This document shows positions 25,378 to 34,503 of a stretch of DNA of 34,503 nt, piece by piece. The notes below the pieces were generated by a model that was not told the origin of the DNA, ran no database searches, and was given only the letters and a program-made list of their open reading frames with translations. The number at the start of each line of letters is the position of its first letter. The stretch's first letter is position 1. This DNA comes from a virus, in IMG/VR virus record IMGVR_UViG_3300032180_000024, positions 1 through 34,503 of that record, one strand, 5' to 3'. A program made the translations under genes and the position numbers.

Positions 25378-25631
25378 CAGCTCTTGTACAGACCGGACGA
25401 GTGGATGCCGTGACTGCCACCAGTGGACGCGATGGTGGTGCTGTCCCACCCGCTGATGTCGCCCGAGGTGTCCGACGGGGATCCGGTGGCGGAGCCGGTG
25501 TTGGCCTCCTGAAGGTCAGGGGCCTGGGTGTACACACCCGAGCACCCGCCCTTGAGGCCCTGCATCGGCTTGGAGCCGCCTTCGTGACCCGGGTCGCCGG
25601 GGAACGGCCAGGGGGTAACGCTGGTGTCCAT
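25377..25631 (-). CDS. small Gly/Ser/Thr-rich protein
   Basis: An 84-residue protein with GGAAGGACTAGAAC before the ATG. It is low in complexity (GSATGSPSDTSGDISGWDST) with one Cys and no clear fold, and lies just after the portal-side zinc protein. It may be a disordered virion component. Function unknown. Confidence 0.5.
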   Translation of the reverse strand: MDTSVTPWPFPGDPGHEGGSKPMQGLKGGCSGVYTQAPDLQEANTGSATGSPSDTSGDISGWDSTTIASTGGSHGIHSSGLYKS

Positions 25632-25634
25632 GTT

Positions 25635-25943
25635 CTAGTCCTTCCGGTTCTTCGGGTCCTTGTGCCCCTCGCAGTACTTCGCCCGAGGGGAGTCGCTGTA
25701 CTTGGGATTGTCGCAGCCGTCGAAGTCGCAGATAGAAACTTCCACCTCGCCCTCGGGCACCGTGGTCATGGAGCCCTCTTTGAGGACCTCAACCACGGAC
25801 TCGGGAGTCTGCGCCTTCGCCCGGAGCGGCGCGAGCAAACCAGCCTCGCGCAGTACGTGGTCGGAGATCCCCGGGTTCGCGATGCGTGCGCATCCGAGGT
25901 GGTGACGCTTCTCTTCCTCGTGTCCGCACAGAGAACAACTCAC
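25635..25943 (-). CDS. zinc-binding protein following the portal gene
   Basis: A 102-residue protein from GTG at 25943 that overlaps the portal stop (GTGA) and follows AGGAG. It has two Cys/His clusters. The first is MSCSLCGHEEEKRHHLGC (two Cys of a CxxC, then His, His and Cys). The second is ICDFDGCDNPKYSDSPRAKY followed by CEGH. Both look like small zinc fingers, the second like those in HNH-linked modules. A role in DNA or portal binding is possible; it is not an HNH nuclease itself because no HNH core is seen. Confidence 0.65.
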   Translation of the reverse strand: MSCSLCGHEEEKRHHLGCARIANPGISDHVLREAGLLAPLRAKAQTPESVVEVLKEGSMTTVPEGEVEVSICDFDGCDNPKYSDSPRAKYCEGHKDPKNRKD

Positions 25944-27799
25944 GCGGGAACACTCCTCTTAACCGAGGCCGACATGTTCGGCCGACCGTTAGCAGATAGA
26001 CCCGCGAGCAACGACATGAGATCCGGCTTGCCGCCGGGTCCCATCTGCGCCTGTCCGGGGGCGGTGCCTCCGGGGAGGCCAGTCCCCGGGTTCATCCCGA
26101 AGGGAACTCCAGCTCCGCCCTCACCGGCCCCCTGGGGGCCGCCACCCTGAGCACCGGCAGCAGCCTGGGCTGCCGGGGTGAGCTGCGGCTGGGGCTGGAA
26201 GGCCTTCAGGATGGCCTCGTGCATCGGCACTCCCTTTTCGCGCTGATCGATGATCGTCGCTGCGCGCGAGAGTACCTGGGTGGGGTCCATGCCCTGCTGG
26301 GCCATGATTCCCGCCGACGCGAGCATGGAGAAGACGCCCTGCTTGAGCGCGTCGGTCACCTGCTCGTTGTCGATCTGCGCCTGCATCGCATTGACGTCGA
26401 TGTCCATAGGCAACTGCCGCTGGAGAAAGTCGCGGCTGATGTCCTGGTCACCGCGGAGCTGAAGCAGGAAGATCAGGGCCTGGTTCGGGTTCATCCCGGC
26501 CGCGAAGCCGTACGAGACGTTGACCGTGTGGTCGCCGTCGATGTCCTTGCGGGGCACGTAGCGCTCATTGAACGGCGTGCCGGACACCATGCCCTGGATC
26601 GACTTCTCGCGGTCCGGCCAGTACTTCTCGTCCATCTCGAAGGCCAGCGCCAGCGCCTCTTCTAGCGCATGGCCGATCTGACGCTGACCCGTCGCGATCT
26701 GCGTGTCGTATCCGCCATTGAGTGCCTCGACACCCTTGCCCGTGATGATGCTCGCCTGGACGTCGCCTGTAGCCGCCGCAGGCGTGCGGGTGCCGTTGCG
26801 GATCTCTTCCTGAAGGACAGCTTCCTGCTGGAACGCATGCGCAGGTAGATCTGTCGTGATGCGGCGGATCTTGTCCGGGTTGTTAGTACGAAGGATTGCG
26901 TCGTCGCCGAACGGAACGCGCTGGATGTCCGTCGGGATCGCAAGAGGAGCGCGAACATTCCTCTGGGTGCCCTGGAGCCCCAGGAGTGCCATCCGAGCGC
27001 GAGCAAGGTAGGGGTAGATGATGTCGTCAAACTGCCCCCGGTCCTGGTCGTCGTAGGAGGGCTTAAGGGCAATAGCGACCGGGACTTTTCCGAACGGGTT
27101 CGGCGTATCCATGAGGACGCAGTTGTTGCGTTCCGGGAGGTAGAGGACGTACGCGTCCTTGTCGCAGTACTTGACGCACTCCAGGAGCGTGTCCGGCTGA
27201 ACTTCACTCGTCGGGCCCCACTGGCGGCCCAGAATGATCTGCGCGTACTGCGGGAACTTGTCGGCAAGCCGCCAAGCCTCCTCACGCCACACCTTCGTGT
27301 AGCTGATGACCTTGCCCGCCAGGTCGAACTGCGGGTAGGACTTCATCGGGTTGTCGATGCGGATGCGCGGGGTGCCCGCCTCGAAGTCGGGCTCGACCAC
27401 GAACGGCATGGAGCCGTAGCTCAGGTACCAGTCGCACCCCTGCGTCATCCTGGACGCAAGGTTGGACGAGTCCACGTAGGAGTGGGCAATCTTCGTCCGC
27501 TTCGCCACACGCTTGCGCTGCTTCTCGGACGACACCACGCCGTTGGCGCAGTTGATGGCGGGCAGGGGGGCAAGGTTCTCCGCCATCTGCCGCGACGCAA
27601 TGTCTATCGCGTTGGCGACGATCGGCTTGGGCCAGATGTCCGGCATGGTGCCGGGCATGACATTGTCGATCTTTCCCGTGCGAACGTCGTACACGGTCAT
27701 GTGCCGCGAGTCGCGCTCCTGGTAGAAGCGCCGCAGGCCTTCGACGCGCTTCGCCACACGGGCGATGTCCGTCTGCGGCCAAATGACGGAAATGGTCAC
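25940..27799 (-). CDS. portal protein
   Basis: A 619-residue protein from GTG at 27799 behind GGGAGGGCAAG. The early part VEGLRRFYQERDSRHMTVYD, followed by ANAIDIASRQMAENLAPLP, is typical of phage portals (helical start, wing domain). Later VPFGDDAILRTNNPDKIRRI and PAAATGDVQASIITGKGVEAL match the stem and crown region of portals seen beside large terminases. The C-terminus is a Gly/Pro/Gln-rich tail. It would form the dodecameric DNA gate of the head. Confidence 0.8.
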   Translation of the reverse strand: MTISVIWPQTDIARVAKRVEGLRRFYQERDSRHMTVYDVRTGKIDNVMPGTMPDIWPKPIVANAIDIASRQMAENLAPLPAINCANGVVSSEKQRKRVAKRTKIAHSYVDSSNLASRMTQGCDWYLSYGSMPFVVEPDFEAGTPRIRIDNPMKSYPQFDLAGKVISYTKVWREEAWRLADKFPQYAQIILGRQWGPTSEVQPDTLLECVKYCDKDAYVLYLPERNNCVLMDTPNPFGKVPVAIALKPSYDDQDRGQFDDIIYPYLARARMALLGLQGTQRNVRAPLAIPTDIQRVPFGDDAILRTNNPDKIRRITTDLPAHAFQQEAVLQEEIRNGTRTPAAATGDVQASIITGKGVEALNGGYDTQIATGQRQIGHALEEALALAFEMDEKYWPDREKSIQGMVSGTPFNERYVPRKDIDGDHTVNVSYGFAAGMNPNQALIFLLQLRGDQDISRDFLQRQLPMDIDVNAMQAQIDNEQVTDALKQGVFSMLASAGIMAQQGMDPTQVLSRAATIIDQREKGVPMHEAILKAFQPQPQLTPAAQAAAGAQGGGPQGAGEGGAGVPFGMNPGTGLPGGTAPGQAQMGPGGKPDLMSLLAGLSANGRPNMSASVKRSVPA

Positions 27800-31101: not shown

Positions 31102-31150
31102 CTTGCGCATCCAACGCAACCCATCCCTCGAAAGGAACAGTGATCGAACT

Positions 31151-31381
31151 ATGACACACAGCCGCTACCGCTGTCCGGCATGCCGGGTGACCGTCATGAA
31201 GGCCGACGGCCACTACTACCTGCTGGGCCCTTGGCATGTACACAACCGGTGCGCCGTCACGTGCACCTTGTGCGACAAGCCGATCAGGAAGCCGCCCTTC
31301 GGCCAGGCCTACCGTGTGGTCGCCTGGCTCGGAGAGCCGGTCCACCAGGAGTGCAAGGAGAAGGAGCAGAAGCAGCCATGA
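31151..31381 (+). CDS. 76-residue LIM-like double zinc-finger protein
   Basis: ATG at 31151; AAAGGA lies 14 bases upstream, farther than usual. The protein has RYRCPACRVTVMKADG, then HNRCAVTCTLCDKPI and PVHQECKEKE: CxxC...HxxC followed by CxxC...HxxC, the ligand layout of a LIM domain. Such modules usually join proteins. It is coupled to the membrane protein gene that follows by a four-base overlap. Confidence 0.65.
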   Translation: MTHSRYRCPACRVTVMKADGHYYLLGPWHVHNRCAVTCTLCDKPIRKPPFGQAYRVVAWLGEPVHQECKEKEQKQP

Positions 31382-31554
31382 ACATCTTCACCCCCGTCCT
31401 GATCGTCCTGTTCGGGACGCCGCTCCTGATCACCCAGTGGGCGGTCAGGAAGCTCACCGGCAAGGTGCTCACCGAGGGCCAGGCCTGGGGAGTGCTCTTC
31501 ACGGCACTCCTGGTCACCCTGTGGGTCTCGGGGTGGTGGTTGGCACCCTCGTGA
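31378..31554 (+). CDS. 58-residue membrane protein with two transmembrane segments
   Basis: AAGGAGAAGGAGCAGAAG lies before the ATG at 31378. Segment 1 is FTPVLIVLFGTPLLITQWAV and segment 2 is AWGVLFTALLVTLWVSGWWL, joined by a short basic loop (RKLTGK). The size is close to a holin, but it is outside the late operon, opposite in direction, and followed by a terminator; a superinfection-exclusion role is as likely. No family recognised. Confidence 0.65.
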   Translation: MNIFTPVLIVLFGTPLLITQWAVRKLTGKVLTEGQAWGVLFTALLVTLWVSGWWLAPS

Positions 31555-31570
31555 CCGACACAGGATCTGA

Positions 31571-31601
31571 GAGCCCCCGGCAGCCGCCAGGGGCTCCTTT
31601 G
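31571..31601 (+). terminator. terminator after the two-gene unit
   Basis: GAGCCCC (31571-31577) pairs with GGGGCTC (31590-31596) around a 12-base loop, followed by CTTTG. It lies 16 bases after the stop of the membrane protein gene and marks the left border of the long non-coding region. Confidence 0.75.
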
Positions 31602-31619
31602 TACCAACGTTTGTACCAA
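31598..31619. repeat. tandem 10-base direct repeat, operator-like
   Basis: TTTGTACCAA occurs twice, 12 bases apart start to start (31598-31607 and 31610-31619). Each copy is itself nearly palindromic (one mismatch from TTGGTACCAA), as expected for a dimeric regulator binding site. It overlaps the terminator tail and precedes a promoter-like region. Confidence 0.55.
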
Positions 31620-31624
31620 ATCCT

Positions 31625-31663
31625 GGGTTATACGTGTAACCCCCTGCCGGGGTCTGCTATTAC
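31625..31663 (+). promoter_or_regulatory. 18-base palindrome overlapping a promoter-like sequence
   Basis: GGGTTATACGTGTAACCC at 31625-31642 is a palindrome with one mismatched pair. TGTAAC (31635-31640) and TATTAC (31658-31663), 17 bases apart, could be -35 and -10 boxes; both are far from consensus. The overlap of palindrome and -35 is a classic repressor layout. The palindrome is plain to see; the promoter reading is weak. Confidence 0.35.
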
Positions 31664-31789
31664 TAGTGGTGGCGGTGGGAGCACGCTCCCCGCTCACCGG
31701 CACTGAATGCCGATGCAGGCCGTTAGAGGGCACCGCACAAACGTGCCCGGATTCGGCCGGGCACACCCCCCTGAGAGACCAGGACGACG

Positions 31790-31873
31790 ATGGCCGGAGC
31801 GCCGGGGCGTCCACGAGGGCGGCTGATGAACATGCCGCGTACCTGGCTCGTACACCGCGCTCATCTGGAGTAA
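31790..31873 (+). CDS. possible 27-residue basic peptide
   Basis: ATG at 31790 preceded by AGGACGACG. The peptide starts MAGAPGRPRGRLMNMPRTWL and contains a GRPRGR core like an AT-hook. It sits after the hairpin GTGCCCGG/CCGGGCAC (31743-31764). There is no other support, and the surrounding region looks non-coding, so this is a low-confidence call. Confidence 0.2.
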   Translation: MAGAPGRPRGRLMNMPRTWLVHRAHLE

Positions 31874-31908
31874 TGCCCAGATGTCCCCCTCACAGGGTCC
31901 CCTGTCTC

Positions 31909-32744
31909 CCCCCGCCGGTGGCGGGGGCGCGGCGCGTTCGCCGCCGCAAACGTCGCCGGTGGCGACACGGGCGACTCGCGCCCCCGCGCGACGTCGCACA
32001 TGCGGCCGGTGGCCGCCAGAGCCCCCGGTGGGGGCTGAGGAGTCTGGGCCGTATAGGGGGAGGGGTACCATCCCCTCCCCTCGGCCCTCGTTTAACACCC
32101 CCAGGTCACAGACCTGGGCGAACGAGGGCATATCGGACACGATATGGCCTCGGGGAGGCCACGGAGTGGACTCCACTCGCTACGTCTCGTGTCGCCCACT
32201 CTCGTGCTGCTCCGCAGCACACATGTCCACTACAGGTACAGCCGCCCTTGCGGCTGTACATATGTAAGTACATTCCTTGCATGCGCACGCCTACGCGTGC
32301 GCACATGCACACATACACGCGCGCGGTGCGCGCATATACGCGCGTGACACGCGCGTGACGCACGCGATGCGTGCGCGTACGTGCATGCACACGCTGCCTG
32401 CGTGTGCACGTGGGGGTGCACATCCCTATCGGGCTGTGCCTGTTGGCTTGACATGTGCACACCACTGCTGTGGTGTGCCTGCTTTGCGCATGCGTACGTG
32501 CACGCGTGAGGCGTGCACACGCACGTGAGTGCGCCCGCACTGCGGGCCTACGCTCCTTCAGCCCCGTGAAGGGGGCTGTACGCCTCTGTGAGCGTCTCTC
32601 CCCCCGCTCTGGCCCCGTTGGGCCAGCGTGCCCCTGCGGGGCCGTGAGACAGCCGCACAGCCCTTTGGGGGCGTGCGGGGTAGGGCTGGGGCTCCCAGCG
32701 CCCCGGGGGCAGTCTCTCGATCATGGTTTCCCGCTCTAAGCGGG
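31909..32744. repeat. array of at least 25 consecutive short hairpins
   Basis: Perfect or near-perfect stems follow each other almost without gaps. Examples (stem length, loop): 31909-31927 (8, GGT); 31929-31944 (6, CGTT); 31952-31966 (6, GGT); 31971-31997 (10 with a bulge); 32002-32016 (6, GGT); 32020-32036 (7, GGT); 32057-32080 (9); 32085-32128 (8, enclosing another of 8 with loop ACA); 32129-32146 (7); 32146-32160 (6); 32164-32178 (6); 32204-32220 (7, TCC); 32236-32259 (10, CCTT); 32282-32303 (9); 32319-32333 (6, GGT); 32338-32356 (8, GAC); 32359-32375 (7, GAT); 32386-32408 (9); 32457-32478 (9, TGCT); 32498-32518 (8); 32533-32547 (6); 32559-32578 (7); 32609-32626 (7); 32730-32744 (6, CTA). 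Stem sequences differ, so this is not a repeated unit but a repeated shape. Confidence 0.8.
32280..32520. repeat. alternating purine-pyrimidine tract (Z-DNA-prone)
   Basis: Long runs of strict purine-pyrimidine alternation made of CG, CA and TG steps, for example about 34 bases from 32292 to 32325, then further runs to about 32395 and again near 32490-32520. The composition (many GCGC, GCAC, GTGC) differs sharply from the coding DNA around it. Within the tract lie several of the hairpins of the array. Confidence 0.7.
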
Positions 32745-32851
32745 GACTGTCTCCGCCGCTGCGTGTCGACAAATCGATGACTTTTTCAGATTCGTGCAGC
32801 CCTCTGACCTGCGAATACGTGCATCTCCAAAAGAATCTTGGAAAACAGCTA

Positions 32852-32878
32852 TTGACAGGGCTTGCCCGTTCATAGAGG
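32852..32878 (+). promoter_or_regulatory. candidate rightward promoter
   Basis: A perfect TTGACA (32852-32857) is followed after 15 bases by TAGAGG, close to the actinobacterial -10 pattern TAGRRT. The spacer is shorter than the usual 17-18. An AT-richer patch lies just upstream, and the spacer contains the small palindrome GGGCTTGCCC. It points toward the structured leader and the gene at 33403, about 520 bases away. Confidence 0.45.
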
Positions 32879-32933
32879 TTGGGGCTCGCAACACCACAAC
32901 TCAACAGCACGACCGAGAGGCCCGGGAGGCCCG

Positions 32934-33098
32934 CCCCACTGAGTGGGGATCGCGGATCCCGATCAGGCGCAGAGGTCGCGGAGCGGGCGTCAGCCCCCGC
33001 ACTCGGGTAGGTCGGCAGGGACAGATGTGCAGGACGGGAGAAATGGCCGGATCTTCATCCGGTCCATCAAACGGACCGCGTTGCACCCCCTTCGGGGG
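32934..33098 (+). repeat. second group of short hairpins in the leader
   Basis: CCCCAC/GTGGGG with loop TGA (32934-32948) competes with GGGATC/GATCCC with loop GCG (32946-32960). Then come CCGGAT/ATCCGG with loop CTTC (33047-33062), CGGTCC/GGACCG (33060-33078) and CCCCC/GGGGG with loop TTC (33086-33098). They continue the style of the array beyond the promoter-like site. Confidence 0.65.
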
Positions 33099-33100
33099 CT

Positions 33101-33117
33101 CCTTGAGAACTCAACAG
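33101..33117 (+). promoter_or_regulatory. rRNA-leader-like motif (boxA-type antitermination candidate)
   Basis: CCTTGAGAACTCAACAG directly follows a small C5/G5 hairpin. As I recall, nearly the same string stands in Streptomyces 16S rRNA leaders, where a hairpin plus this box supports antitermination and processing. A partial copy (ACTCAACAG) occurs at 32899-32907. Function here is inferred from that resemblance only. Confidence 0.45.
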
Positions 33118-33135
33118 TGGATATGAGGCATTCGA

Positions 33136-33382
33136 ACCAGGGGTGCGCCCGTAGGGCGTCGCACCCTGTGCAGAGGCGTAGACCGTATGCGCCGGAGTCT
33201 TGCTGCACCCCTGGTATCGATCGTCGCGCCCCCTCTCTCCAATGGGGGGCGCGGTACGGGCCTGCGCCTAGTCCGGTGGGATTCTCCCCCACCGGACGCT
33301 CCGTGGCGCAGGTGCAGGGCTTGTACAGCCTGCTTCCCGTGCAGTTCTCCCGGCCCTTGGCCGGTGGGGCTGTATGGCACCG
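33136..33382 (+). other. structured 5' leader with competing stems
   Basis: A long stem ACCAGGGGTGC (33136-33146) with its complement at 33205-33215 encloses smaller hairpins. The same left strand can pair locally with GCACCC at 33161-33166, so two shapes exclude each other. Next come CGCGCCCCC/GGGGGCGCG (33225-33253), then CCTGCGCC/GGCGCAGG (33261-33312) enclosing GTCCGGTGGG/CCCACCGGAC, then CCGGCC/GGCCGG near 33352-33366. The chain ends at the start hairpin of the next gene. It may be an attenuator or riboswitch-like control region. Confidence 0.6.
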
Positions 33383-33404
33383 ATGATCTAAGGAGAGAGA
33401 TCAT
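33362..33404 (+). promoter_or_regulatory. start-site hairpin 1 (SD in loop, ATG at stem end)
   Basis: ATGATCT (33383-33389) pairs with AGATCAT (33398-33404), a perfect 7-bp stem whose 8-base loop is AAGGAGAG. The A and T of the start codon form the last two bases of the right arm. Directly before it, with no spacer, stands a second stem CGGTG/CACCG (33362-33382). The loop keeps the ribosome site open while the stem holds the start codon. Confidence 0.7.
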
Positions 33405-33699
33405 GAGCACTGACATCGCCACTCAGTACGCCTACACCCGCGCCGGAAACATCCGTGTGTCCCCTGGCACCCTCTTGGGGGAGCCGGGGGAGCAGTGGGT
33501 GTTCAAGAGCGTGAGCCGTAAGGCGTACGGCAGCTCGTCCGGCCGCGTGCTGGTGGAGCGCTTCTGCCCGGACGGCCACGCCGTTGGCCTCGGGTGGGAG
33601 TGCTCGCACTCCTGGCACGAGAACGGCATCGAGACGCGGGAGTTCTTCCCGTCCGTCTTCGACCTCTACCTCGGCACCGAGGACGGGACGGAGGCATGA
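33403..33699 (+). CDS. 98-residue protein, first rightward gene after the leader
   Basis: ATG at 33403 with AAGGAG in the loop just upstream. It begins MSTDIATQYAYTRAGNIRVS. The middle has WVFKSVSRKAYGSSSGRVLV and RFCPDGHAVGLGWECSHSWH, with two Cys and three His that might bind a metal; the end is acidic (YLGTEDGTEA). No family recognised. It has a 1.8-kb non-coding region before it, so it is probably the first gene of a rightward unit. Confidence 0.7.
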   Translation: MSTDIATQYAYTRAGNIRVSPGTLLGEPGEQWVFKSVSRKAYGSSSGRVLVERFCPDGHAVGLGWECSHSWHENGIETREFFPSVFDLYLGTEDGTEA

Positions 33700-33779
33700 A
33701 AGAGCACCTACAGGATCTGCTGATCACCTTCTGTACCGGCTGGATCCTCGTTGAGGCGTGGCACCGACTGCGCAAGTGA
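33696..33779 (+). CDS. 27-residue membrane-type peptide
   Basis: ATGA overlap with the preceding stop; GGAGG-like ACGGAGGC stands before the ATG. It contains LQDLLITFCTGWILVEAW, a short hydrophobic span, and a basic end (HRLRK). Small membrane peptides are common in phage early regions. Function unknown. Confidence 0.5.
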   Translation: MKEHLQDLLITFCTGWILVEAWHRLRK

Positions 33780-33867
33780 CCCCTCATTGCATGGGGAGCG
33801 CACGGACCTACGGGCCCGTGCGTTGCCCGGAGCAACAGGGCTCCGATGTCAGAAGGAGAGCTGACAT
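33780..33867 (+). promoter_or_regulatory. intergenic cassette 2: three hairpins ending in an SD-loop hairpin
   Basis: In order: CGCACGG/CCGTGCG; then CGGAGC (33828-33833), loop AACAGG, GCTCCG (33840-33845); then ATGTCAG (33846-33852), loop AAGGAGAG, CTGACAT (33861-33867). The last two stems abut with no spacer. The ATG starts at 33866. Flanks GAGCGC before and GCGTTG after the first stem also occur in cassette 3. Confidence 0.75.
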
Positions 33868-34279
33868 GAACCACCGCATCACGCTGGCATCCACGGGCGC
33901 GGAAATCACCCTCGGCCGGACCTGTGTCCGCGCGGTCTCAGGTCCCCACACGGGTTCCTGGTGGCGCGTGGACGAGATTCGCAGCGTCAAGGGCGTCCAC
34001 CGCGTCTACGCGTCCCGACGGACGCGTGCGGGCCGTCAGAAGCGGTTCTTCGCACCCGAGATCTTCGGCCTTCTGGTCGAGGAACTCACCACCTGGACAC
34101 GGCACGCCCTGAACGTCGCGTGCCACGTGCGCAGGAAGTTCGACGACGGGATCATCCTCGGGGCCTTGGCCTTGGTTCCGCTCGCCCTGTTCGAGGCGTT
34201 CCACGGCGGGGAGTACACCCGCCATCTGATCGAAATGCTCTTCAACTCCCGCGCCAACGGCGGCGGGGGAGAGCACTGA
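33866..34279 (+). CDS. 137-residue protein with C-terminal membrane segment
   Basis: ATG at 33866 fits the cassette. The N-terminal half is beta-rich and basic (ITLASTGAEITLGRTCVRAV, HRVYASRRTRAGRQKR). The C-terminal half has a helix (EIFGLLVEELTTWTRHALNV) and one hydrophobic span (DGIILGALALVPLALFEAF). The tail is Gly-rich. It may sit in the membrane with the basic part in the cytoplasm. No family recognised. Confidence 0.7.
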   Translation: MNHRITLASTGAEITLGRTCVRAVSGPHTGSWWRVDEIRSVKGVHRVYASRRTRAGRQKRFFAPEIFGLLVEELTTWTRHALNVACHVRRKFDDGIILGALALVPLALFEAFHGGEYTRHLIEMLFNSRANGGGGEH

Positions 34280-34366
34280 TCCGACGCAGCATGCAGAGCG
34301 CCCACCCCCAAGGGGTGGGCGTTGTGCGGAGCTGTTCGGCTCCGACGTCGTAAGGAGAGACGACAT
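34280..34366 (+). promoter_or_regulatory. intergenic cassette 3: three hairpins ending in an SD-loop hairpin
   Basis: In order: CGCCCACCCC, loop CAA, GGGGTGGGCG, flanked as in cassette 2 by GAG and TTG; then CGGAGC (34327-34332), loop TGTTCG, GCTCCG (34339-34344); then ACGTCGT (34345-34351), loop AAGGAGAG, ACGACAT (34360-34366), with one C-A mismatch. The ATG starts at 34365. The geometry is the same as in cassettes 1 and 2, base for base, from loop to start codon. Confidence 0.75.
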
Positions 34367-34503
34367 GATCATGTACGACCTGATGCAGGGTACGCAGGCC
34401 TCCGTGTCCACGGAGCCTGCTCTGTGCATCGTCACGTCCGCGCCGTACTGGGCGTCCGACTTCCCGGACCGCGACGGCCGTCTGACCGTCGCGTTCTGGA
34501 CCG
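34365..34503 (+). CDS. start of a rightward gene (cut by the window edge)
   Basis: ATG at 34365 in the cassette, then MIMYDLMQGTQASVSTEPAL and SAPYWASDFPDRDGRLTVAF. High GC at third positions supports coding. Only 46 residues are visible; no family recognised. The gene continues beyond the right edge. Confidence 0.65.
   Translation, partial: MIMYDLMQGTQASVSTEPALCIVTSAPYWASDFPDRDGRLTVAFWT

Follow-up and report, generated by a model that had tools for sequence, protein, structure and literature searches.

Hairpins with a Shine-Dalgarno loop and changing stems at early-gene starts in a largely uncultured group of soil phages with kinship to Streptomyces phages

The nearest known kind of element to the one considered here is the start-associated sequence (SAS) of the cluster K mycobacteriophages, GGGATAGGAGCCC, a 13-mer that hardly varies, has a stem of 3 bp and leaves the start codon outside (PMC3203893). 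Its consensus of 13 bp tolerates at most 2 deviations and is accompanied upstream, at about half of the sites, by inverted repeats; in the extended form (ESAS) these are inverted pairs of 17 bp that follow a common consensus, for which the authors argued against RNA pairing (PMC3203893). The element of the present phage lineage is like SAS in repeating at the starts of non-structural genes of actinophages, in one orientation, and in having the Shine-Dalgarno sequence (SD) between complementary ends (GGG ATAGGAG CCC in SAS). It is unlike SAS in that its stems comprise 5-10 bp, extend as far as the AUG and differ for almost every gene; the sites in the window, by which we mean the whole stretch of 34,503 bases analysed here, diverge from GGGATAGGAGCCC and from each other at nearly every stem position. 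The window element lacks the sequence that defines SAS and for that reason is not classed with it. A previous sequence-only reading of this DNA had set the two apart by an SD in the loop and a start codon in the stem; the start codon does lie outside SAS, but the other half of that contrast is lost, with AGGAG placed between complementary GGG/CCC ends in SAS also. In phage Pixie (L339, 28000-61000), the SAS copy at position 2520, CGGATAGGAGCCG, deviates at both ends and keeps the outer pairing, a single case hinting that SAS too may be an RNA hairpin.

The resemblances to CsrA, RegB and MS2 sites are best regarded as functional analogies. CsrA/RsmA sites present GGA in a hairpin loop over the SD, for example 5'-AAGGAU in RsmZ-2 (PMC4066749), and the current element likewise has GGA in a loop overlapping the SD. 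The A(N)GGA loop motif of CsrA is present in the window and absent in the related loci G002 (CTGGAG), L215/L217 (TTGGAG) and L238 (TTGGAG, TCGGAG); unlike CsrA sites, the loops of the relatives thus read CTGGA, TTGGA or CGGA without A(N)GGA, and there is one site per gene. The T4 RegB consensus, GGAGRAYARAA, is rich in A and has no hairpin in its definition, structure usually being protective (PMC3014915). The likeness to RegB sites consists in an early-gene GGAG SD that is unpaired (by prediction in our case), RegB requiring an unpaired GGA; among the early proteins scanned, none matched a nuclease. The MS2/levivirus coat-protein operator is a hairpin at the replicase start (PMC6071253). The window hairpins similarly lie across the start of a phage gene; the MS2 operator, by contrast, is a single site of fixed sequence in an RNA phage. 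The SD bases of the MS2 operator sit in the stem. Rfam covariance models gave no match at E <= 1 to window positions 32800-34503, and no description of the SD-display hairpin was found in the open-access literature searched, a search limited in extent.

The window is a complete IMG/VR virus record. Its minus strand carries terminase, portal, capsid and tail genes; the terminase is ~50% identical to those of the Streptomyces phages Manuel, FlowerPower and Immanuel3, members of Beephvirinae, and the 34.5 kb of the window represent a fragment of a genome that is Beephvirinae-like and thus akin to those of Streptomyces phages. Among full-length relatives, two uncultured genomes are closest, G001 (46.6 kb; 74% nucleotide identity to the window across 25 kb) and G002 (45.9 kb; 75.5% nucleotide identity). 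By synteny, the three hairpin-led genes of the window open the series of early genes that is read away from the packaging end; the contig breaks off at this point, with ~10 kb of early genes missing. Between the terminase and the first early gene lies a hairpin-rich, mostly non-coding region of ~2 kb (31120-33380), probably the genome-end region; positions 32876-32939 are conserved in G001. Early regions of further relatives were fetched with an anchor protein family (alignment A1): the G001 early gene at 25466-26377 and its relatives constitute a 300-aa family, phrog_5931, that adjoins the early block throughout the group. The search for near relatives of the window's 3' region returned no DNA match among named phages.

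The three plus-strand hairpins are read directly from the sequence, in full agreement with what had been claimed about their coordinates, common loop, 7-nt arms and pairing. SD-display hairpin 1 (33383..33404) is composed of ATGATCT (33383-33389), the loop AAGGAGAG (33390-33397) and AGATCAT (33398-33404), with 7/7 pairs. Hairpin 2 (33846..33867) has the stem ATGTCAG (33846-33852) and CTGACAT (33861-33867), again 7/7 pairs, around AAGGAGAG (33853-33860). Hairpin 3 (34345..34366) has ACGTCGT (34345-34351) and ACGACAT (34360-34366) around AAGGAGAG (34352-34359), pairing at 6/7 positions with one C-A mismatch. At all three sites the right arm ends with the AT of the ATG (33403, 33866 and 34365). 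The loop AAGGAGAG occurs in the 34.5-kb window at these three sites only, with a chance expectation of 0.78. The 22-mers of sites 1, 2 and 3 are predicted to form hairpins with a loop-borne SD at -5.7, -7.3 and -5.7 kcal/mol (site 3 as 5 bp), and only 1/200, 2/200 and 2/200 shuffles, respectively, fold equally well. The minimum-energy folds of the whole leaders (101-126 nt) retain the SD hairpin at 3/3 sites, and hairpin 1 is present in both the MFE and the centroid structure of its 101-nt leader.

The plus-strand genes behind the hairpins are taken as real because relatives encode homologues of the proteins P0001 and P0002, and because the third ORF matches a gene of the related locus L326. 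Early gene 1 (33403..33699) encodes 98 aa, with homologues in L326 (57%), L330 (58%), G003 (60%) and G007 (58%) and no Pfam/PHROG match. Early gene 2 (33866..34279) encodes 137 aa and has homologues of 33-39% in G001, G002 and L326. Early gene 3 (34365..34503) begins MIMYDL, is cut by the contig end and matches the L326 gene at 5834 with 46% identity in 46 aa. P0001 and P0002 gave no match among named phages, and peptide patterns of P0001 gave none in viral contigs. A 27-aa ORF (MKEHLQDLLITFCTGWILVEAWHRLRK; 33696-33779), possibly a small membrane protein, overlaps the stop of gene 1 with its start (ATGA) and has no hairpin of its own.

A count over all crude gene calls of whole genomes was too diluted to convince, and the test was therefore narrowed to GGAG starts of the early block and then to GGAGA starts. 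For 115 unique early GGAGA starts from 21 records, a mean of 6.0 pairs span the SD. When the left arms are swapped among these starts, the mean drops to 4.25 (sd 0.22) and none of 10,000 permutations reaches the real value; swapping within genomes gives 4.53, with 0/5,000 reaching it. The GGAG core was kept unpaired in real and swapped folds alike. Kinship among the sites and overlap between some of the relatives mean that the permutation counts should not be read as exact probabilities. Covariation was assessed on a gap-free alignment of 24 columns that holds every AAGGAGAG start of the window, G001, L326 and L330 (16 in all), taken whether paired or not and hence without selection for pairing; 4 more such starts belong to G002, a genome with a different hairpin loop, and were left out. 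Paired cells amount to 71% (41% when shuffled) and double changes occur in 38 cells (13.5 shuffled), with all 7 pairs affected. The covariation score is 0.711 compared to 0.194 for shuffled alignments (0/500), and with the 3' partner slid along it never exceeds 0.243.

Orthologous leaders extend this evidence across genomes. The gene at 33866 has the stems ATGTCAG/CTGACAT in the window, GTGACAG/CTGTCAT in L326, ATGACGT/GCGTCAT in G002 and TGATCAG/CTGATCA in G001, each with all 7 pairs when G-U is allowed. The gene at 33403 shows ATGATCT/AGATCAT (window), ATGACGG/CCGTTAT (L326) and TGAGTG/CACTCA (L330), and that at 34365 GTCGT/ACGAC (window), TGTCG/CGACA (L326) and GGTGA/TCACC (G001). The three sets comprise 10 leaders with 10 distinct stems, 10/10 of them paired (G-U allowed). 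Because pairing is kept while the stem sequences change, the RNA shape of the early-gene start hairpin is under selection. The proposal of the sequence-only reading that selection acts on the shape thus receives strong support, also across genomes, from the permutations, the covariation and the orthologous leaders. The same evidence bears on two readings that do without an RNA structure. An inverted repeat acting at the DNA level, as operator of a dimeric DNA-binding protein, would account for the fixed centre of the repeats, and ESAS of cluster K have been interpreted in that way (PMC3203893); we nevertheless deem it very improbable, given that pairing is kept though the arms differ at nearly every site and that the repeats are always gene-oriented and centred on the SD. 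That pairing is a compositional by-product, namely the palindromic GATC before ATG (GATCATG) plus chance, seems scarcely credible. The self-complementary GATC is indeed the commonest tetramer in the last 4 nt before the start (54/128 positive sites), but permutations that preserve composition fall short of the real pairing, many stems lack GATC (TGTCAG, GACGT, GGTGA, GAGTG, GGCCAA, CTGCA), and structural genes, whose spanning pairs are near the swapped-arm expectation, show no excess.

Related phages carry the same element on most of their early genes, where the stems are different and the loops vary slightly; further copies of AAGGAGAG were absent from the rest of the window. The first early genes of G001 have the same layout, on the stems GTGATGA/TCATCAT, TGATCAG/CTGATCA, TGATCTT/AAGATCA, GGTGA/TCACC, TGGTCAT/ATGATCA, ATGATCT/AGATCAT and TGATCAGT/ACTGATCA. 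The stems of G002 include ATGACGT/GCGTCAT and GATCAT/ATGATC, with the loop mostly CTGGAGAGA. Early GGAG starts with >=5 spanning pairs, counted per genome against the swapped-arm expectation, number 9/14 in G001 (3.1 expected), 7/12 in G002 (1.5), 5/8 in G004 (1.2), 7/14 in G012 (2.3) and 3/7 in G011 (0.5); G014, G005 and G010 show a weak excess or none. The hairpin element is thus confined to the early gene block. Its carriers form a group of soil phages, for the most part uncultured, that are relatives of Streptomyces phages. The spacing from GGAG to the start is mostly 7-11 nt at positive early sites, compared to a mode of 5-6 nt in structural genes, as if lengthened to fit the right arm. 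A generic GATC-stem scan of viral contigs returned the true relatives L302, L320, L324, L325, L326, L329 and L330, along with chance-like loci. A genome-contig scan yielded three distant relatives whose flanks lack the element as a class, and the three matches to a CCGAYG-flank pattern were judged chance for want of pairing and context.

The loop, said to be invariant, is so within the window; across relatives the common part is reduced to the GGAGA core, with CTGGAGAGA, TTGGAGAGG and CGGAGAG occurring besides AAGGAGAG. Loop flanks are genome-specific only modestly, their identity being 0.69 within and 0.58 between genomes (0/1000 label permutations), and a modest within-genome excess weakens loop invariance as proof of a specific reader. 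The hairpins might still serve as an operator read in trans, at which a phage or host RNA-binding protein or endoribonuclease would block or cut the SD for joint shut-off of the early genes, in the manner of RegB, CsrA or the MS2 coat protein. We consider this, the main rival to the cis-acting reading proposed below, quite possible, if on the doubtful side. It would fit with the restriction to early genes, with the many variable stems presenting the same GGAGA loop, with flanks more alike inside a genome, and with the different constant SD hairpin that sister phages have at homologous genes, as if the reader had changed; T4 RegB, which cleaves GGAG SDs in early mRNAs, offers an analogy (PMC3014915). 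Against it, CsrA was found in 0/23 phage records and 0/1 actinobacterial (Nocardiopsis) genomes, the early proteins scanned revealed no RNA-binding or nuclease domain, and outside the SD the loop shows little specificity.

Predicted accessibility shows what the left arm contributes to the start region. At 113 early sites chosen without regard to pairing, the SD is predicted to be unpaired at 0.70 with the native left arm and at 0.49 with swapped arms (p 7e-10), while the AUG is unpaired at 0.37 and 0.47, respectively (p 0.001). Structural-gene SDs have a mean predicted accessibility of 0.32; those of the three window hairpins reach 1.00, 0.99 and 0.73 at 37 C. Since the native left arm raises accessibility of the SD and lowers that of the start codon, the hairpin is understood to display the SD and to lean on the AUG. 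An RNA thermometer, one of the readers considered at the outset, could make use of the moderate stem stability; however, classical thermometers pair the SD, and with the window SDs predicted open at 37 C (0.73-1.00) such a device is most improbable. RNase III, suggested likewise, is an unlikely reader of the SD hairpin because the stem has only 7 bp.

We tentatively propose, at somewhat less than even chance, that the hairpin is a cis-acting initiation platform for early genes. The start region of early-gene mRNAs would fold into a short hairpin of about 5-10 bp (-4 to -12 kcal/mol), with the SD core GGAGA held in the loop and the 3' arm reaching or entering the start codon. The SD could thus be kept single-stranded in a GC-rich mRNA beside strong upstream hairpins, ready for immediate docking of the 30S subunit, and the AUG-side arm would act as a weak clamp to be melted by the docked ribosome. 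The outcome would be that translation of the early genes is set and coordinated. An AUG clamp should, however, slow initiation, and relatives add two further difficulties for the platform. The uncultured phages G003 and G007, close by their capsid, bury the SD at homologous early genes in a constant CTACTCCGAAYGGAG-type motif that pairs it with CTCC (CTCCGAAY/GGAG; SD predicted unpaired at 0.01-0.05). Their early starts in L232 (G003) and L227 (G007) have this constant CTACTCCGAAYGGAG(AG)-type motif, in which a predicted 4-bp hairpin buries the SD. Cultured Beephvirinae (FlowerPower, Manuel, Dennebes, Stella, Immanuel3, WRightOn and JXY1 were counted) keep the GGAGA SD but lack the hairpin (0 to 3 of 9-11 early sites each), managing without a displayed or a buried SD hairpin. 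An SD kept with its pairing lost, named beforehand as the outcome that would speak against selection on shape, is accordingly what the cultured phages present; in the window's own lineage the pairing persists. By these predictions, the relatives appear in three states: SD displayed, SD buried and neither. Simple display is therefore not required by the gene set, and a regulatory reading is favoured: the hairpin probably controls the timing or efficiency of early-gene translation. A more elaborate version, in which shape and SD loop form a code on many early genes that a phage factor would read in trans, with lineages toggling between displayed and buried SD, strikes us as rather unlikely.

Strong predicted structure also precedes the SD hairpins. 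In the window, long plus-strand hairpins are predicted 5' of SD hairpin 1 (33337..33377; region z -4.3), hairpin 2 (33781..33840; irregular, about 23 bp with internal loops, z -4.1) and hairpin 3 (34281..34339; irregular, z -7.4). Unlike ESAS, these upstream hairpins have no 17-bp arm sequence shared among the three leaders. G001 and G002 have long irregular hairpins at the same place, similar in shape and changing in sequence. RNase III processes T7 early mRNA at intergenic sites. The upstream hairpins, long, irregular and placed between early genes, are like such T7-type sites, and those of the window (about 23 bp) could qualify as an RNase III duplex, unlike the 7-bp SD hairpin, which falls short of ~20 bp. 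They could be RNase III-type processing or decay-control sites. A module of mRNA processing and stability, with the upstream hairpin cut in an RNase III-like manner and the SD hairpin left as a protective 5' cap, would be in line with the strong predicted hairpin directly 5' of the SD hairpin in most positive leaders (mean z -2.9, n=79), with the irregular stems of about 20+ bp in the window, G001 and G002, and with the lack of U-tailed terminators at the upstream hairpins, where sigma-70-like promoters were likewise not found. It leaves unexplained the exact position of the SD in the loop and the pairing up to the AUG, and we regard it as improbable. In L215 (355, 1052 and 1406) the upstream hairpins have a constant loop CTGATT[AC] on variable stems, and its relatives show other constant loops there (TGGCAC in L217, GTGCCA in L230); hairpins of the L215 type represent a second element with constant loop and variable stem.

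Lastly, the finding has importance for the start-associated repeats of actinophages, a feature recognised since 2011 that has lacked a mechanism and whose upstream repeats were doubted to pair. Because the stem varies in the present phage group, RNA structure becomes statistically demonstrable, orthologues included. Up to about 10 natural early-gene hairpin variants per genome, sister phages with displayed or buried SDs and cultured relatives that have neither provide a testable system. The element thereby bears on how ribosome sites stay open in GC-rich mRNAs.
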